This document shows positions 21,184 through 41,879 of a DNA stretch of 64,000 bases, piece by piece (within the stretch, counting starts at the first letter, position 1; each line of letters opens with the position of its first letter). This DNA is from Rhodocyclaceae bacterium (GTDB lineage: Bacteria > Pseudomonadota > Gammaproteobacteria > Burkholderiales > Usitatibacteraceae), in assembly GCA_020247545.1 (NCBI GenBank), contig JADCIX010000001.1, forward strand, positions 62,001-126,000, given 5' to 3'. Below the pieces are notes generated by a model. That model ran no database searches, was not told the origin of the DNA, and saw only the letters and a program-made list of their open reading frames with translations. The translations under genes were made by a program, and so were the position numbers.

Positions 21184-21573
21184 CTACATTGAGCAGAACA
21201 TCTCGCGGGTCAGCGAGATGAGTTTGATGATGCGTGGATCTTCAATCCGGTACAGTATCCTTTTGCCCTCACTTCGGCTGGCGACCATGCCGCTGGCTTT
21301 CAGGATCGCCAAGTGCTGGGATACATTGCCTTGGGTGGTGCCTACCGCCTCGACAATTTCCTGAACGGAAATCTCCCCCGACGAGAGCAGGCATAACACT
21401 TTGATCCGTAGCGGGTGGGACATCGCCTGCATCGCCACAGCGGCTTCTTCAATGTTCTGAGATTTGCCAATCAGGTCAAAAATGTCGGTGTTGGCGTCTG
21501 TAAGGCGCGCGGCACGTCGTTTGAAGGTGCGTTGTGGTGCGCCTGTGTCGATTGTTTTTTTCGCGGTAGCCAT
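21184..21573 (-). CDS. ArsR/SmtB-family regulator with a persulfide-sensor-like cysteine pair
   Basis: Winged-helix DNA-binding repressor. The core helices (MSHPLRIKVLCLLSSGEISV, then GNVSQHLAILKASGMV) are typical ArsR. Cys61 (VLCLL) and Cys127 (REMFCSM) are 66 residues apart. As I recall them, the redox cysteines of the sulfide/persulfide sensors SqrR and BigR have the same spacing and flanks. No CxC metal site is seen. An N-terminal extension of about 45 basic residues is unusual. The gene lies 7.3 kb from the sox genes, separated by the giant lipoprotein gene. A role in controlling sulfur oxidation is inference. Confidence 0.85.
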   Translation of the reverse strand: MATAKKTIDTGAPQRTFKRRAARLTDANTDIFDLIGKSQNIEEAAVAMQAMSHPLRIKVLCLLSSGEISVQEIVEAVGTTQGNVSQHLAILKASGMVASRSEGKRILYRIEDPRIIKLISLTREMFCSM

Positions 21574-21585
21574 TGGTGAACTCTA

Positions 21586-21797
21586 TCTGAATACTTCATA
21601 GGGGTGCGCCTTAAAGTGGGTGAGTGGGCGAGCGATTTTTCGCCTGACCGACCAAAGCATAGGGGGCTATGCTGGGGGAGGAGGGCGCGTGTTTGGCAAA
21701 CTCGGGTCTGTCGAAGCGCCCGAGGGTGAACGTGCAGCCCGCATTCACGGCAAAAGAGGAACGAGCCAAATCGCTTATCCACCCATTCAGATTCAGC
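21586..21797 (+). repeat. Miniature inverted-repeat element, decayed copy
   Basis: About 212 bp that aligns along its length with the copies at 38213-38391 and (reversed) 41521-41766. It starts TCTGAATACTTCAT, contains GCGAGCGATTTTT and an imperfect palindrome around AGCATAGGGGGCTATGCT, and ends with a degenerate CCATTCAGATTCAGC. It lies just upstream of the ArsR-type gene start. The remaining part of the 500-bp spacer (21798-22073) holds nothing I can recognise. Confidence 0.75.
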
Positions 21798-22073
21798 CTC
21801 ATTAGGCGCTCACTGATCAAAGCTACGTAGCGGGATTATTGTGCGGAATCCGCCAAGCCTCGACGAAGAAACTGTTCTGGCCATCTAATGGTCTCGCATC
21901 TTTTGGTAAAGCTCTAATTCTCAAAACCCGTCTGGAATTGCGCGCTGGCAATGACTGCGCGGCGGCGGGAGCCGCCGCAACCGACCCCAATCCGGCCTAC
22001 GATTTGCCCGACAAGCGGTCGTTCAAATGAGCAACAACATTGTTGGGTAGTGGCGTTGCGAGTTTAGCGTCAT

Positions 22074-25000
22074 CTAGGGTTGAACCGGCACAAACCCGGA
22101 TGGACTCGAGCCTGCATTCGCAATCACAGTTGGTGCTGCACCGTTGTCGTTCAGCAACCAAAGAGTAAGCGTCCCATCCGGTCGCTTCCAAACGACGTCC
22201 ATAATGCCGTCTCCGTTGAAGTCGCCTGCTGCGTAGAACTGCCAAGACGGGTCGGCGGTGAGAATCGGCAGTGTCGTTGAAGTGACCTGAAGAGCGCTGC
22301 TAGTACAAGACGCATTTTGGTCGTCCGGTAAGCCGGTGTACGTTGGCAAGCTCAAACCGGAGGCGTTGAGCGCAATCAACGACACAAGTCCCGTGGAGTT
22401 GTCTCGAACTAGGATATCGCCTCTGCCATTGCCCGTGAAGTCTGCCAACTTCAGCGCGGTCAAGTTCGTGGGGATATTCCCGATTAAGACGTTAGCGCAG
22501 GTGCGATTTGCTGTTGCCATCAGCGCCCGCGCCTGATTGGCAGGACTGACATAGACCATATCCGCAGCGCCATCGCCATTTAGGTCGGCTGCGCCGAGAA
22601 GGGTCCAGTTGAGGGGCGCACCACCACGCTTACGTACCTGAGTAACAGCGCTGCCGTTGGTAAACCAGATGTATGATACGCCGGTATCAGGGGAGTCAGT
22701 TACAACGTAACGCCAAACGAGATCGCCAAAGCCGTCGCCATCGAGGTCGCCCCCCGCCTGTACATCCCAGACTTGTTTGACCTGTCGCCAGAAAACTTCA
22801 TTCGATGGCGAAAAACCCCGCCAGATTTTGATGTCACCGAACGTTCCTTGCGTCATATTCTGGAAGGCAAGGTCTGACTTCCCGCTTCGGAAAAAGTCGC
22901 CTACACCAACCAAACGGTAACTTGGGCCTGGGTCCTGAAGTGCGCTAAATTGGAATCGGTTATTAAACAAGCGTGCGACTTGAAGTTGTGCTGAAGCGGA
23001 CCGGACGACGATTGCGCTTTTGCCGTTGCCATCTATGTCAATCCCACCACGCCTAGAAAGCTGAATTGGCCCCGATAACGATCGAATTGTTCGAGTCAGC
23101 GAAAAGTTCGGACAGTTGGTCGTGCTGCTAGCCGCTAAAGACAAGCAGGAGGCCACATTCCAAGAATAGATGCCCGGGCCAAAATTGCTTACCGTAAACC
23201 CAGTTGAAGTTTGGGTAGGCGGCAACGCGGGTGTTAAGACATCGGTGCCAGTTGTTCGGTTAAAGATATAGAACGAGTAGCCTGCCGCACCTTCAACCCT
23301 ACTCCAAGAGAAGTCCACGGAGCCTCCATTAATCACTGCTTGGTCAGCTGGCGAAACCAGAGTCGGTGCTGGCGGAGAGGGAGTTAGCTCGTCAGCGCTA
23401 CCCGGGTAGTAGACCGGGGTCGGTTTTCGGTACAAACCAACTGACGACCCGAGCTGACCCATTGCATTACTACCCCAGCAAACGACGGCATCGCCGACCG
23501 TGGCGCAAGTGTGCGACACGCCTGCCGCGATGGACGCCACCCTGCTACCGGGGGCGATTACGTCAACTGGAGTATTACTAAACGCTATTCCGTTTATACC
23601 CTGTAGGCTTCCCCAACACTTCACCCCCCCGGCAACAATTGCGCAAGTATGATAAGGGCCCACTGCAACTGCAGTAACACTGTTACCCGCCGCAAACACC
23701 TGAACCGGCACTCGGCTGTTGCTGTAAGACCCGTTGCCTAGCTGTCCACTGCTACCGTGGCCCCAACATTGCAGGCCACCGTTGACCACCGCGCAGGTGT
23801 GGAAGGTACCCGCGGAGACACTGGTGGCACCGGTACCAGCCGCGATTGATTGCACCGGCACGTTGGAGTCTGTCGTGCTGTTGTTGCCCAACTGGCCGTA
23901 CTGGTTCCAACCCCAACACCGCACGCCGCCACTGACGACCGCGCAACTATATGAATTTCCGGCGGTAACAGCAACTGCGCCAAGCCCTGCTGCAATTGAC
24001 TGCACCGGTGTATTTGAACCAGAAGTACTCCCGTTACCCAACTGGCCACTTCCTCCATTTCCCCAGCACTGCACGCCGCCGCTGACTACAGCACAAGTAT
24101 GGTATCCGCCCGCAGCAACTTGACCAACATTACCGGTAATGACTTGAACGGGCTGTGATGCGGAGGTCGAACTACCGTTACCAAGTTGACCGAACCTCCC
24201 GTCTCCCCAACAGCGAAGCGCTCCCGCAACCACGGCACAAGCGTGCTGATTGCCCACAGCAATGCTGGTTGCGCCAGAGTTCGCGGCAACCACCGAGACC
24301 GGTGTTGTGCTGTGGTTAGAAACACCATCCCCAAGGCCAAACTCATTAGTTCCCCAGCATGACACGCCTCCGCGTACCAACGCGCACGTCTGGCTCTCGG
24401 ACGAGGCGACTACAGTGGCATTTCCGCCGGCAGCAATTGCGACGGTTGGCGGCAAAGTAGAGGAGCTGCCATCGCCTACTTGGCCGCTCGCATTATTACC
24501 CCAGCACAATGTCTGCCCATTGACGATGGTACAGGTATGCGCAGCTCCGGTCGCTACGATCGTCGCGCCTGACTTGGCCGGGATCGTTTGTAGCGGCACC
24601 GAACTTGGGCTCGCACCACTATTGCCGAGCTGACCACTTGTGTTTAAGCCCATACATCGCACACCGCTGTCAATCACGAAACACGTGTGTCTGGCACCGC
24701 CCGCTACTGCCGTCACCCCACTTCCCGAAGGAACGACCTGCACGGGAACACTGGATTGGCGCGTGCTGCCATTTCCTAGCCTGCCATCTGATCCCTCCCC
24801 CCAGCAGCGCAGCCCGCCGTTAACCACGGCACAACTATGCCATTGACCGGCCGCAACGGAAGTCGCCCCGCTACCCACAGCAATTGCCTGGACTGGGGAA
24901 TTAGCAGAGACGCTACTGTTGTTGCCCAACTGCCCAAAGGCGCCGTTGCCCCAACATTGCACTCCGCCATTGACTGCGGCGCAGGTATGGTAGTCGCCGG

Positions 25001-28000
25001 TGGAAACTGCAGTGACGTTGCTACCCGCTGGGATAACGGATACGGGTACAGACCGGTTTGAGGTGTTGCCGGTGCCAAGTTGCCCGGTGTTGTTGTACCC
25101 CCAACATTGCACGCCCCCGGCTACAACCGCACACGTATGCTGAGAACCTGCCGACACGGCAGTAACGTTGCTGCCGCTGGGAATAGCCTGCACAGGGGTA
25201 TTAGAGTATGCGGTACTATTGTTTCCAAGCTGACCGTATGCACCGTAGCCCCAACACTGTGCACCACCGTTCACCACCGCGCAGGTGTGGTATGTCCCTG
25301 TGGAAATTTCGGTGACGTTGCTACCTGCCGCAATGACTTGAGTTGGCGAAGAGTTGTTCGAGTAATTGCCCGTCCCGAGCTGACCATAAGAATTCCCGCC
25401 CCAGCATTGAACCCCGCCGTTCACGACGATACAGGTGTGAGATCCGCCTGAACTGACGCGCGTCGCCGCTGGTGGCGATAGGCTTGGGCGTGCTCGCACT
25501 TCGATATTTGTGTTCAGCGTTGCCGACTCAATAGAATTGGTATAGCGAATCGAGACCGAATAAGTCCCGGGTTGGGCGCTCGTGCTTCCTGAAATCGTTA
25601 GGTTACCAAGACCATCATAGGTGGCGATCAAACCGGCTGGAAGCCCAGAAACGCTGACTGAATTTGGTGGCTGAGAGCCACCAATCAGCAATCTGCCAAC
25701 GTATGTTTGACCTGCCTGCACGACCGGAAAAGTGGAAGCCACCAGTTGCGCGCTAAAATCCAGAACTTCGATAGTCTGCGTAACCGGCTCGGCGGGTAAG
25801 AAATTACGGTCACCCACTTGAAATGCCTTGAGCTGACAGGATCCGCGCTTTACCAAGGTTACAGTCCTGTCATTCGCCAAACAGACTGATGGCGTCAAGC
25901 TTGTAAAGATTAGCGGTAGGTTTGACGACGCCGAAGCGTTTGGCGTCGTCGTACCGGCAGACACTCTCACTGATTGACCTGCAGGGAAACTGATTGTCTG
26001 CGCCGCGCCGTCCCCAACGATATCGACCGACGGATTGGATGCGCGAAAGACGCCTCTCCCGTACGTCGCAATAAGCAGGGTTCGGTTATCAAACCACTGC
26101 AAGTCTTCAATCGCGACACCCGGCGCAAGTTCTGGCGCCAATTTCCATGAAGCGCCATCGTTCTCGCTTGTGTAAAGCCCAAACTCAGTCCCTGCGTAGA
26201 GCATTGTATTTTTCAGGGGATGTTGCGTCACCGTGTATACATAACGATTACCCAAATTGCCGGTAATGTCCTGCCAGGTCGCTCCGCCATCAATGGTGCG
26301 AAAAATGGATTTGCTTGCCTGGGTGTAGCCAAACGTCGCATAGACTCGATTGGAATCTGACTGGTCAATGAAAAGCCGCGTCCCATACCCCCAAGTTCCG
26401 ATGGGCAATTTAAAGCTCTGCCAACTCGGAGTAGCGTCGAGAGCGTTTGAAGTCTTTTGCACTAGGCCGCCGGCCTGTCTAATCACCCAAACGACGTTCG
26501 CGTTACTTGGCGCAGCCGTTGCCGCGACAATGTTGTTTTTTGCGTCCGTAGGGTCAGGGCCGAGAATTTGCTTTCGTGTTGGTGCCGTGGTCCAAACATC
26601 ATCGCTCGCCCAAAGCGACGTGTTCATCATGTAAACTCGGTTCGGGTTATTTCTGTTTTGTTCGATGTAGGTGAAAAAGGGGTCCGATTCCGAGCCTGAC
26701 CAAATTGTCTTGGAGGTAACCCCTGTCTCGGTCAAATTCACTTGTGAAACTGCACCCTGCTGATAGGTCGTCAAAAACTGAAACGGGTTGTTCGGATTAA
26801 ACGCCGCACGCATGCCGTCGCCGCCGGTCGGCTGCCACCAATTGGCGGCGTCGCCCCGATACATCGTGGTGCCGTTGTCCTGCAGGCCCGTGATGATTGC
26901 GCCTCCCAACCATGCAGAACCATTAACATAGTAGCTCTGGGTGATGCGTAGATCGTTATTCAGGTACGTCAGCGGCCCGACCCTCGTCCTATAGTCTGCG
27001 TATGAAGCAGGATCCACTCGCAGTTGCGTCACATCATCTGCACGCCAAATGCCGCCATCATTGCCAAACCATACCCGCCGATTAGTAGACCCGTTGAAGT
27101 TGGGGTCAGTAAGAATAACGTGGTGATCCGCATGGAGCAATACGTTCAATCCGCCGTTGGCGTAGGCTGGCTCTGGGAACGGCAAGTTGACCGAAGAGAC
27201 CGGTCGGGTCGCATAGTCATTAACCATAGCCCATGTGCTGCCGCCGTCCAACGACTGCAGCACGACAATTTCGCCTAACAGGAGATGGTTGGCGTTTGTG
27301 GGATTTACCCAAAGGACATGGTTGTAGCCACCTTGGGATCGAGCATTAGCCCCCCAAGTTGAAGACGAGGCGCGCGCCAAATACACCCAGTCGTTGCCGC
27401 CGTTATCGGAACGCCAAATTTCATAGCGTTTATTGGCATCGCCAGATTTTGCGGTTATCGAGGCATAGACTCTTCCGGGGATGGATTTCGCATATGCGAA
27501 GTGGATATCGCGAGACTCACTTCTGTCATCACCCGGGAATCCGTTCGCATAACGCCAAGTCAATCCGAAATCACCTGAGACCAAGATGCCTCGATAGTCC
27601 GTATTGGCGATAAGGTTGTTGGCGTTGTTTGGGTCCTGGCGCAGCCATTTGACTCTGGAAAATGACGGGCTGTTGCCAGAAGTTACGCTCGTATTCAGTC
27701 GCTGCTGCCATGTCGCCCCACCATCGCTACTACCCCAAATTCCCTCATAGTCCGCAGAAACCAGCATCAAATTTGACTGCGTTGGGTGAATCACAATACT
27801 CCGTGCCAACGCAAGGGCGGTGCCGGCGCCACCGGCAGGTTTGATCAGGGTCCAACTATTGCCACCGTCTCGAGTGACGATGATTCCAGGACCAGACGAG
27901 TTTGCGTATTCCCCAGTCGTCGCAAAAATCGTATTCGGATTTCCCGGCATCATCGTCAGGCTAAATATGCCGACATAACCCAGCGCATCCGTTGTAGACC

Positions 28001-28598
28001 GCCACGAGTTACCTCCATCCAAGGATTTCCAAACCCCTCCCGTTACCGCGCCCAACCAAACGATGTTGGGGTTCGTTGGGTCTACAAGAATCGAGCGAAT
28101 ACGACCGCCGACATTGCCCGGACCCAGGTTGTCCCAAACCGCCGCGCCCTTTCGATTGAAGCCTGGCTGTGTCGACAACTCGGCAAGCGCCGCTTCTCGC
28201 TCTTCGAATGCTTGTTTCGCAGCGGCAGCGTAGCGTTTTTGATGCCCTTCAATGTCGCCCCCCATCCGCAGCAAGCGAAAGTATTGGTCTGCGCCGCCGG
28301 GGTACTCACCGGTTCGGGCCACCACGCCTTTAGTAAGGTGTCTGATCTTTCTGTCGGCCGAGGCTGCGCAAAAGTCCTTTAGTGAAACCGCCCGGTTTTT
28401 GAGCACCGTTTCAAGGTTTGCGGCCGTGATCTGCAAGCTCGCAGAAACGCTTTCGATTGTTGGCTGTTCAGGGCATGAAACCGTACTCAGCGACTTTTGA
28501 ATAATCGGATTTGAAATTGCATATTCGGGAGCTGGCACTGTCGAACATCCAGTAAGAGCCGTGATCGCCGCTGCAATCAAACCGTTAACTGTTTTCAT
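22074..28598 (-). CDS. Giant repeat lipoprotein: BNR/sortilin-like, RCC1 and FG-GAP repeats
   Basis: A 2174-residue predicted lipoprotein. The signal peptide ends in the lipobox LTGC (Cys18). About residues 150-860 hold BNR/Asp-box propeller repeats (SLDGGNSW, SSDGGATW, TIDGGATW). An Ig-like segment follows (about 955-1040). About 1045-1720 hold fourteen RCC1-type repeats of roughly 45-50 residues, most with an HTC...CWG cysteine pair and GQLGNGS turns. A fibronectin-like stretch (about 1760-1845) and five FG-GAP-like repeats with DxDGDG-type calcium loops (GDLDGDGFGD, ADLNGDGAAD) finish the protein. It is probably displayed on the outer membrane or cell surface. No enzymatic domain is evident. 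Function is unknown; adhesion or binding is only a guess. Confidence 0.9.
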   Translation of the reverse strand: MKTVNGLIAAAITALTGCSTVPAPEYAISNPIIQKSLSTVSCPEQPTIESVSASLQITAANLETVLKNRAVSLKDFCAASADRKIRHLTKGVVARTGEYPGGADQYFRLLRMGGDIEGHQKRYAAAAKQAFEEREAALAELSTQPGFNRKGAAVWDNLGPGNVGGRIRSILVDPTNPNIVWLGAVTGGVWKSLDGGNSWRSTTDALGYVGIFSLTMMPGNPNTIFATTGEYANSSGPGIIVTRDGGNSWTLIKPAGGAGTALALARSIVIHPTQSNLMLVSADYEGIWGSSDGGATWQQRLNTSVTSGNSPSFSRVKWLRQDPNNANNLIANTDYRGILVSGDFGLTWRYANGFPGDDRSESRDIHFAYAKSIPGRVYASITAKSGDANKRYEIWRSDNGGNDWVYLARASSSTWGANARSQGGYNHVLWVNPTNANHLLLGEIVVLQSLDGGSTWAMVNDYATRPVSSVNLPFPEPAYANGGLNVLLHADHHVILTDPNFNGSTNRRVWFGNDGGIWRADDVTQLRVDPASYADYRTRVGPLTYLNNDLRITQSYYVNGSAWLGGAIITGLQDNGTTMYRGDAANWWQPTGGDGMRAAFNPNNPFQFLTTYQQGAVSQVNLTETGVTSKTIWSGSESDPFFTYIEQNRNNPNRVYMMNTSLWASDDVWTTAPTRKQILGPDPTDAKNNIVAATAAPSNANVVWVIRQAGGLVQKTSNALDATPSWQSFKLPIGTWGYGTRLFIDQSDSNRVYATFGYTQASKSIFRTIDGGATWQDITGNLGNRYVYTVTQHPLKNTMLYAGTEFGLYTSENDGASWKLAPELAPGVAIEDLQWFDNRTLLIATYGRGVFRASNPSVDIVGDGAAQTISFPAGQSVRVSAGTTTPNASASSNLPLIFTSLTPSVCLANDRTVTLVKRGSCQLKAFQVGDRNFLPAEPVTQTIEVLDFSAQLVASTFPVVQAGQTYVGRLLIGGSQPPNSVSVSGLPAGLIATYDGLGNLTISGSTSAQPGTYSVSIRYTNSIESATLNTNIEVRARPSLSPPAATRVSSGGSHTCIVVNGGVQCWGGNSYGQLGTGNYSNNSSPTQVIAAGSNVTEISTGTYHTCAVVNGGAQCWGYGAYGQLGNNSTAYSNTPVQAIPSGSNVTAVSAGSQHTCAVVAGGVQCWGYNNTGQLGTGNTSNRSVPVSVIPAGSNVTAVSTGDYHTCAAVNGGVQCWGNGAFGQLGNNSSVSANSPVQAIAVGSGATSVAAGQWHSCAVVNGGLRCWGEGSDGRLGNGSTRQSSVPVQVVPSGSGVTAVAGGARHTCFVIDSGVRCMGLNTSGQLGNSGASPSSVPLQTIPAKSGATIVATGAAHTCTIVNGQTLCWGNNASGQVGDGSSSTLPPTVAIAAGGNATVVASSESQTCALVRGGVSCWGTNEFGLGDGVSNHSTTPVSVVAANSGATSIAVGNQHACAVVAGALRCWGDGRFGQLGNGSSTSASQPVQVITGNVGQVAAGGYHTCAVVSGGVQCWGNGGSGQLGNGSTSGSNTPVQSIAAGLGAVAVTAGNSYSCAVVSGGVRCWGWNQYGQLGNNSTTDSNVPVQSIAAGTGATSVSAGTFHTCAVVNGGLQCWGHGSSGQLGNGSYSNSRVPVQVFAAGNSVTAVAVGPYHTCAIVAGGVKCWGSLQGINGIAFSNTPVDVIAPGSRVASIAAGVSHTCATVGDAVVCWGSNAMGQLGSSVGLYRKPTPVYYPGSADELTPSPPAPTLVSPADQAVINGGSVDFSWSRVEGAAGYSFYIFNRTTGTDVLTPALPPTQTSTGFTVSNFGPGIYSWNVASCLSLAASSTTNCPNFSLTRTIRSLSGPIQLSRRGGIDIDGNGKSAIVVRSASAQLQVARLFNNRFQFSALQDPGPSYRLVGVGDFFRSGKSDLAFQNMTQGTFGDIKIWRGFSPSNEVFWRQVKQVWDVQAGGDLDGDGFGDLVWRYVVTDSPDTGVSYIWFTNGSAVTQVRKRGGAPLNWTLLGAADLNGDGAADMVYVSPANQARALMATANRTCANVLIGNIPTNLTALKLADFTGNGRGDILVRDNSTGLVSLIALNASGLSLPTYTGLPDDQNASCTSSALQVTSTTLPILTADPSWQFYAAGDFNGDGIMDVVWKRPDGTLTLWLLNDNGAAPTVIANAGSSPSGFVPVQP

Positions 28599-28717
28599 CG
28601 TGATCCCACTTTCTTACGTTTTTTTGGTGAGGCTGGTTGTTGTTAATTTATAGATTTATGAAACCAAGTGTTCGCGCCGCTTCAATATTGACCCAGGCTG
28701 CCGATTGAAATTTGATC

Positions 28718-28742
28718 TAGCCTGAATACTTCATGGGTCGCC
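28718..28742 (-). repeat. Solo end of the CTAG-associated miniature element
   Basis: Starting at the TAG of a CTAG (28717-28720), this 25-bp stretch matches the right terminus of the 38213 and 41521 elements (CCTGAATACTTCATGGGTCG). The similarity stops after about 26 bp, so only one end remains. It lies in the 333-bp spacer between the giant lipoprotein gene and soxC; with the 21586 copy it brackets the lipoprotein gene. Confidence 0.7.
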
Positions 28743-28824
28743 TGCCGTTTCGAAGTATGTTAGCTGGTGGCGATGTGCAAAACAATTTGGGTTTACCGTT
28801 TTGTTGCGGTGCAGCGTGACTTCG

Positions 28825-28842
28825 TATTAGATTAGCCTAATA
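28825..28842. promoter_or_regulatory. Inverted repeat upstream of soxC, possible operator
   Basis: TATTAG (28825-28830) and CTAATA (28837-28842) form a perfect 6-bp inverted repeat with a 6-bp centre, about 90 bp before soxC. AT-rich dyads of this size are used by ArsR-type repressors. That the nearby ArsR-type protein binds here is inference. No convincing -35/-10 pair was fixed around it. Confidence 0.35.
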
Positions 28843-28931
28843 TTAGCCGAACCTTATATCATCATATCCACTACACCCCACCACGCCCCACTACGCCGCG
28901 TTTATGCTGCGGGCTAATCGGAACCAGCAAT

Positions 28932-30275
28932 ATGGCAGAGCAACCTAGCAGCGGACGGATCACCAAGGCACCGGAAAATTTTCTCTCGCCGGCAATGATT
29001 GCCGACGTTCAACGCGGACGCCGTGACTTTCTACGCGGGGCCTTCGCCGGTGCCTTGAGCGGCGCGGGTGCGGTCGTTGCAAGCGGTGCCGCCGCACAGA
29101 CGCCATTGCTTGGCGACCCGAACATTCTTGAGTTGCCCGAACACACCAAGGGCTTGGGCCAACCGGTTGCCGCCACACCCTACGGCATGCCGTCTAAATA
29201 TGAAGCGAATCTACAGCGACGCGAAAGCCCGGGATTGACCCGTGTCTCCGCCGCGTCAGTGTCATTTTGCCCGCTACAGGGACTGTTTGGCATCATCACG
29301 CCTAGCGGGTTGCACTTTGAACGACACCACCAAGGCTGGTGGGACATTGATCCGACCAAACATCGTTTTATGATTAACGGCTTGGTGAAAAATGCCAAGG
29401 TCTATACGATGGATGATCTGATGCGGCTACCTTCGGTATCGCGCATGCACTTTATCGAGTGTGGTGCAAACACCGGCATGGAGTGGGGCAATGTCGCGGT
29501 GCCAACCGTCCAATATACCCACGGCATGTTGAGTTGTTGTGAATTCACCGGTGTACCGCTTTCCGTTCTGCTGGAAGACTGCGGCTTCGATAAGTTGAAA
29601 GGCAAATACATTCTTGCTGAAGGGGCGGATGGCTCAAGCATGACGCGCAGCATCTCGATTGAGCGCGCGCTGGATGATTGTTTTGTGGCGTATGCCATGA
29701 ACGGCGAGATGTTGCGCCCTGAGAACGGCTACCCGCTGCGACTGGTGGCACCGGGCATTCAAGGCGTGAGCTGGGTGAAATGGTTGCGTCGTTTGGAAGT
29801 CGGCGATAAACCCTACGCCACCAAAGACGAAACCGTGCATTACATCGACTTGATGCCCGATGGCACCCATCGGCAGTACACCAGTATTCAAGAGTGCAAG
29901 AGTGTCATCACTACCCCGTCAGGCGGCCAAACACTAATGGACAAGGGCTTTTACAACGTCAGTGGGCTGGCCTGGTCGGGTCGCGGCAAGGTTAAACGCG
30001 TCGATGTTTCTTTCGACGGTGGCCGCAACTGGCGGACGGCCAAGTTAGACAGCCCGGTTCTCTCAAAATGTCTGACAAGATTCAGCATCGGATTTAACTG
30101 GGATGGCAGCCCGGCGATTTTGCAAAGCCGTGCGATCGACGAAACCGGCTACGTGCAGCCGCAAATGCGCCAACTTCGTCAGGTGCGGGGGACACGTTCG
30201 ATCTATCACAACAATGCCATTCAAAGCTGGAAGTTGGATACCAATGGCGAAGTGTCTAACGTACATGTGGGTTAG
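28932..30275 (+). CDS. soxC: Sulfite dehydrogenase/sulfane dehydrogenase molybdenum subunit SoxC
   Basis: Molybdopterin subunit of SoxCD, which oxidises the sulfane sulfur held on SoxYZ in the periplasm. A Tat signal with twin arginine (RRDFLRGAF, residues 30-38) precedes an Ala/Gly-rich core. The cysteine expected to bind Mo lies in HFIECGANTGMEWGN (Cys177). C-terminal SRIDG-like features include VDVSFDGGRNW. At 447 residues it is normal for SoxC. The 3' end overlaps the start of soxD, and the pair heads this Sox cluster. Confidence 0.95.
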   Translation: MAEQPSSGRITKAPENFLSPAMIADVQRGRRDFLRGAFAGALSGAGAVVASGAAAQTPLLGDPNILELPEHTKGLGQPVAATPYGMPSKYEANLQRRESPGLTRVSAASVSFCPLQGLFGIITPSGLHFERHHQGWWDIDPTKHRFMINGLVKNAKVYTMDDLMRLPSVSRMHFIECGANTGMEWGNVAVPTVQYTHGMLSCCEFTGVPLSVLLEDCGFDKLKGKYILAEGADGSSMTRSISIERALDDCFVAYAMNGEMLRPENGYPLRLVAPGIQGVSWVKWLRRLEVGDKPYATKDETVHYIDLMPDGTHRQYTSIQECKSVITTPSGGQTLMDKGFYNVSGLAWSGRGKVKRVDVSFDGGRNWRTAKLDSPVLSKCLTRFSIGFNWDGSPAILQSRAIDETGYVQPQMRQLRQVRGTRSIYHNNAIQSWKLDTNGEVSNVHVG

Positions 30276-38134: not shown

Positions 38135-38212
38135 CTAAAGTAACAGCAACTTAGCCCTCCACAATTTCGGACCCCGTTCATGCAATTGCGATGAGTCATA
38201 CGCATGGCCTAG

Positions 38213-38391
38213 TCTGAATATTTCATGGGGGCGCGTTCGAAAGCGGGCGAGTAGGTGAACAAGCGAGCGGTTTTTTGCCTGACCGACCATAGCATAGCGG
38301 GCTATGCTTCGGCAGCAAGGCGCAAAATTGCCGTCCAATCGCCCAGAGGCAACGTCCTTCTAAGCAACCGGCGACCCATGAAGTATTCAGG
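38213..38391 (+). repeat. Miniature inverted-repeat element, short copy, flanked by CTAG
   Basis: This 179-bp element has ends TCTGAATATTTCATGGGGGC and CGACCCATGAAGTATTCAGG, flanked by CTAG at 38209-38212 and 38392-38395. Inside it has the palindrome AGCATAGCGGGCTATGCT. Compared with the 41521 copy it lacks about 65 bp internally. It has no coding capacity. Confidence 0.85.
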
Positions 38392-38476
38392 CTAGAATAC
38401 GGCGCGTTGATTCCGCTGTCCTAATTTGTGATTGTTCGAGCGTTTTCTTGGGTTGGATTTAGAGAGGAAAAATTTC

Positions 38477-41516: not shown

Positions 41517-41520
41517 CTAG

Positions 41521-41766
41521 CCTGAACATTTCATGGGTCGCCGGTTGCGTAGAAGGAGGTTGCCTCTGGGCGATTGGCAAACCAATTCGGCTCGTTTCTG
41601 TATTGCTCTGGATGCGGGCTGCAGGTTCGCTCTCGGGCGAATGGACGGCAATGTTCCGCCTTCCTGCCGAAGCATAGCCCGCTATGCTGTGGTCGGTCCG
41701 GCAAAAAATCGCTCGCCTGTTCACCCACTCGCCCGCTTTCGAACGCACCCCCATGAAATGTTCAGG
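41521..41766 (-). repeat. Miniature inverted-repeat element, long copy, flanked by CTAG
   Basis: This is the longest copy seen (246 bp), with ends CCTGAACATTTCATGGGTCG and CCCATGAAATGTTCAGG and CTAG on both sides (41517-41520, 41767-41770). On the minus strand it aligns with the 21586 and 38213 copies, including GCGAGCGATTTTTTGC and the AGCATAGCGGGCTATGCT palindrome. It has no transposase. It sits about 110 bp after the antiporter gene stop. Confidence 0.88.
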
Positions 41767-41879
41767 CTAGTGGCCGAATTGGCAATTGACAGGCAGAGCG
41801 CCATGCAACCAATGAACACGATGGCGATGCTCTTCCCCGAATCGAAGAGGTTCGAATAGCTTTCGGCAGAAAGCCGTAG

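Follow-up and report, generated by a model that had tools for sequence, protein, structure and literature searches.

The seven-bladed RCC1 propeller fold is shared by UVR8, by the eukaryotic RCC1-like domains of RPGR, HERC1/2 and RCC1 and, as judged from a model, by the protein described here. Unlike those proteins, ours has tandem propellers with a Cys pair in each blade, in a larger lipoprotein that is predicted to be exported. Most highly repetitive RCC1/BLIP-II propellers are found in bacteria (PMC9218822), and RCC1_2 matches are frequent in this bacterial family (23 of the 61 genomes of relatives searched), so the eukaryotic association to which the original prediction drew attention is uninformative. 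Outer membrane vesicles of Myxococcus are also reported to contain a protein with RCC1 repeats (PMC4158809). Repetitive RCC1 blades, 7 or 14 of them in congeners, are common to our protein and the bacterial propellers, but BLIP-II is a small, free secreted inhibitor, whereas the present array forms part of a lipobox protein together with BNR and FG-GAP modules. GH74 xyloglucanases and Vps10 propellers have BNR/Asp-box repeats over about 740 residues in common with it, but its own BNR region lacks the aligned catalytic Asp. In fold, the model of the C-terminal FG-GAP module is close to the lectin propeller of UmbA4, from Streptomyces umbrella particles, a propeller that binds teichuronic acid (PMC13274773), but identity is 17%, a trypsin-like domain is absent and there is no sign of a toxin particle. 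Congeneric proteins have two of its modules each, either 14 RCC1 repeats with FG-GAP (L113, L114) or, in lipoproteins, BNR with FG-GAP (L065, L097).

The gene is a single open frame of 2174 aa on the minus strand, running from 28598 to 22074 of the window (the whole 64,000-nucleotide stretch analysed), according to the open reading frame list and its translation. The original prediction had the frame right but was silent on its strand. It lies between a regulator gene and soxC, with the following features:

21184..21573, minus strand: ArsR-family regulator, divergent neighbour of soxC in relatives (Pfam HTH_5, synteny)
21586..21803, minus strand: degenerate miniature element (MITE), outer end at the arsR-side junction (nhmmer 1.9e-37, copies)
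22074..28598, minus strand: multi-propeller lipoprotein gene, 2174 aa (ORF list, translation, Pfam)
22077..23078, minus strand: FG-GAP propeller module, residues 1841-2174, common to about 16 proteins of the genome (Pfam, copies, model)
23109..23369, minus strand: Fn3-like domain, residues 1744-1830 (alignment with L021; weak match to 3mpc, E 0.04)
23433..24446, minus strand: predicted RCC1 propeller 2, repeats 8-14, residues 1385-1722 (AlphaFold model)
24447..25472, minus strand: predicted RCC1 propeller 1, repeats 1-7, residues 1043-1384 (AlphaFold model; UVR8 match)
25473..25922, minus strand: Ig-like linker, residues 893-1042 (sequence reading; without a Pfam match)
25923..28163, minus strand: BNR/Asp-box region, residues 146-892, related to GH74 and Vps10 propellers, aligned catalytic Asp absent (Pfam Sortilin-Vps10, phmmer)
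28545..28598, minus strand: signal peptide with lipobox LTG/C18, then Ser (translation; lipoboxes in most BNR relatives too)
28717..28809, plus strand: truncated MITE at the soxC-side junction (nhmmer 7.9e-15)
28825..28858, no strand: palindromic operator-like site on the soxC side (inverted repeat; present in close relatives' undivided intergenic regions)
28932..30275, plus strand: soxC-type molybdopterin oxidoreductase (Pfam, synteny)

The predicted lipobox is borne out by the translation. Under the usual sorting rule a Ser after the lipobox Cys fits outer-membrane sorting, and the outer membrane is thus the likely location of this lipoprotein. From the lipobox onwards the domain order is a GH74-like BNR region, an Ig-like linker, 14 RCC1 repeats, an Fn3-like domain and a C-terminal FG-GAP propeller, and Pfam matches to WD40_RLD (6e-117), RCC1 (2e-90), RCC1_2 (1.5e-53), Sortilin-Vps10 (1.7e-14) and FG-GAP (1.4e-10) were all above their cut-offs. 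Base composition gave no clue to a foreign origin: the gene has a GC of 0.555, and its GC3 of 0.573 is below that of most neighbours and equal to that of one. Promoters and terminators sought by consensus gave none clearly over chance, and a search for a full-length relative on plasmids gave no match spanning 80% of the query.

The regular expression C-x8-C-[W/M]-G finds exactly 14 RCC1 units, spaced by about 50 aa, and their family membership is clear (PF00415 297.6 bits and PF13540 177.8 bits, against curated cut-offs of 21.7 and 22). An AlphaFold model of the repeats, built on an alignment of eight sequences, has two seven-bladed propellers with a pLDDT of 86.8 over both, joined by a low-confidence linker between repeats 7 and 8 (model residues 339-350, protein residues 1381-1392). 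With a pTM of 0.55, the model does not fix the mutual position of the two rings. In a fold search the first half aligned with UVR8 (4dnv; Z 51.5, rmsd 1.9 over 342 residues, 30% identity) and the second with seven-bladed WD40-type propellers (Z about 18). Complete arrays in relatives mostly have 7 or 14 blades, with exceptions among truncated or divergent proteins, and in one public protein the spacing of 35 paired blades reads 14+14+7. The 14 repeats are therefore predicted to form two closed seven-bladed propellers, as the original prediction had thought possible from their number; 14 WRAP blades forming two seven-bladed propellers are a comparable case (PMC9218822). A duplicated seven-repeat block was considered as the source of the array and found unsupported: repeats 1-7 are no closer to repeats 8-14 than at other offsets (offset-7 identity 49.6%), so a single block duplication is not its clear origin.

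Each of the 14 repeats also carries the Cys pair, where the original prediction, right about the pair itself, had credited it only to most of them. Among 695 scored blades, both Cys are present in 503, neither in 191 and a single one in 1 (split 0 and 1); these blades are not independent of each other, and the public loci were partly retrieved with Cys-containing peptide patterns, while the family set was retrieved with a Pfam profile and takes in whole Cys-less arrays. In all 14 modelled blades the two Cys are equidistant from a two-residue turn and directly opposite each other on the hairpin. This placement and the all-or-none co-occurrence support one intrablade disulfide per blade, as had been suggested, which we regard as well supported but unproven. 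Nothing relevant on disulfides in RCC1 blades was found in the open literature. The pair is absent from many bacterial RCC1 propellers and hence dispensable for folding. Family members L119-L126 have 14 RCC1 repeats entirely without it, and the chain of a second RCC1 protein of this genome (L064:4662-10727, ending at a contig edge) has both seven Cys-less blades and at least six with the pair.

The C-terminal module has FG-GAP repeats above cut-off (PF01839, PF13517) with DxDGDG loops, in agreement with the calcium type originally assigned. It is matched 16 times in this genome and as many as 23 times in congeners, at about 40-77% identity, and is joined to BNR proteins and to proteins that are subtilase-, C10 peptidase-, cyclophilin- or cytochrome c-like, the latter names being sequence readings and not profile tests. 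Its carriers include L102 (subtilase-like, module 77% identical), L086 (cyclophilin-like), L089 (cytochrome c-like) and L093 (C10-peptidase-like). Its distribution suggests a surface-binding module common to this genus. Its predicted fold, from a model built on three sequences only (pLDDT 66.4), is a propeller like the UmbA4 lectin (Z 25.2 over 297 residues; next fold 15.9), and glycan binding by this propeller may be proposed on that basis. A PDB sequence search with the module gave no match, none to UmbA. Congeners pair BNR with FG-GAP and RCC1 with FG-GAP, and among the open reading frames examined only the window protein has all three. The family is ordinary and its modules are common in the genus; the three-module combination was not seen elsewhere in the searches made. 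What is informative about the protein is that its Cys pairs are all-or-none and that blades are counted as 7 or 14.

The locus was read in eight congeners, and in every one of them arsR and soxC are divergently transcribed neighbours separated by about 140-350 bp, and the gene is absent; here 7.2 kb is inserted between them. The left edge of the insert is a miniature-element end, at a CTAG present in close relatives, and the right edge is formed by the initial third of a further copy. With a profile made from the window copy at about 38.2 kb and 13 others of this genome, both flanking pieces were recovered at the E-values listed above, so the bracketing elements of the original prediction are real. 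The family has terminal inverted repeats and copies of about 181-271 bp, and its end has about 78 matches in this genome (with up to 3 mismatches) vs 0 for a reversed control pattern. Two more copies lie in the window, at 41517-41770 and 38209-38395, one of full length and one shortened. The flanking TGAATACTTCAT sites were also considered as ArsR operators, which is ruled out, since this motif is found throughout the genome as the terminus of the 181-271-bp element. A related end, CTAGCCTGAATATTTCACCA, occurs in L133 (1934), L134 (1614), L135 (142) and L136 (354), near contig ends in three of the four; a search for an autonomous partner through these ends identified no transposase, and they may come from an insertion sequence that is missing from the assembly and mobilises the MITEs. 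Empty sites together with MITE pieces at both edges make a lineage-specific insertion the simplest reading and support the acquisition originally suspected. The MITE pieces may have carried the gene or may only mark breakpoints. The insert divides the divergent arsR-soxC promoter: only about 12 bp of native DNA (21574-21586) is left between arsR and the miniature element upstream of it, and the native promoter of arsR may be lost, while soxC retains the palindromic operator-like site at 28825-28858.

The genome is in 95 contigs and both edges of the insert are copies of a multi-copy repeat, so the gene might belong elsewhere and have been joined here at repeated MITE sequence. But the degenerate state of the flanking copies speaks against misassembly as well as against a very recent event; the longest exact words that these copies share with 18 other compared copies are 23 and 27 bases, short for a misjoin, and the left side corresponds gene for gene to congener G008, with the right side matching also. 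We consider such an artefact very unlikely. That the place beside soxC was selected, with the protein binding sulfur particles at the surface or partnering a Sox protein, is scarcely more probable. It would account for the position between arsR and soxC, and on the opposite side of arsR, at a distance of about 3 kb, congener G011 has another FG-GAP protein, but that protein consists of Fn3 repeats and FG-GAP, without BNR or RCC1. The eight congeners have the sox genes without this gene at the locus, its transcription is directed away from soxC, and mobile-element pieces lie at both edges. Membership of the sox system is not supported, and entry as a MITE-bounded insert makes the link to sulfur oxidation positional.

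The BNR region raises another alternative, a secreted or surface enzyme in which this GH74/Vps10-like part hydrolyses polysaccharide and the other propellers are carbohydrate-binding accessories. Its top PDB sequence matches are indeed GH74 xyloglucanases (residues 146-892 against 6p2m, E 1.8e-12, phmmer), and NCBIfam weakly indicates a BNR glycosylhydrolase family, below cut-off. However, pairwise alignment places Val against the Asp in the TDIGG motif of GH74 enzymes, an Asp that we take to be the catalytic residue, and paralogue P0002 has Ala at the same position, so catalysis by this region is unlikely and it may be a dead GH74-like pair of propellers. An enzymatic role is thus improbable, if a little less so than a sox partnership. 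Most BNR relatives have a lipobox, and the closest BNR match elsewhere in the 61 searched genomes is at 38%.

We prefer, and think rather more probable than its alternatives taken together, a surface lipoprotein of chained propellers that serves as a binding scaffold, was shuffled from existing modules and arrived in a MITE-bounded insert whose link to sox is one of position. Its architecture and fold suggest a scaffold with a putative glycan-binding tip, and the most likely role would be that of an adhesin or a scaffold for glycan binding at the outer membrane, with no relation to sulfur oxidation. A lipid anchor would hold the protein at the outer membrane, with the dead GH74-like pair at the anchored end, followed by two RCC1 propellers of seven blades, each blade stapled by a hairpin disulfide, and the lectin-like FG-GAP propeller would form the far end. 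Such a chain could keep the C-terminal propeller off the cell, for binding glycans or proteins on surfaces or other cells. The protein would have been assembled by shuffling of modules already in the genus, and the 7.2-kb insert, bounded by MITE pieces, would have entered the arsR-soxC gap in this lineage.

A broader reading is attractive, although we hold it more tentatively: exported bacterial RCC1 propellers could be a distinct disulfide-stapled class with a hairpin disulfide in every blade, gained or lost as a pair of Cys, the genus could have a toolkit that places one lectin-like FG-GAP propeller on many heads, three of whose modules are joined in the window protein, and a MITE-bounded insertion could have cut ArsR from the promoter that it shared with sox. 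Whatever becomes of this reading, what seemed a eukaryote-like oddity gives way to a testable picture in which modular propeller proteins of the cell surface are shuffled inside a single bacterial genus, their RCC1 arrays coming in sevens and probably having one disulfide per blade. The occurrence of the FG-GAP module on protease-, cyclophilin- and cytochrome c-like proteins as well as on lipoproteins points to a common binding tip, whose ligand can be searched for, and the insertion is a natural experiment on the way in which a mobile-element event splits a divergent regulator-sox promoter.
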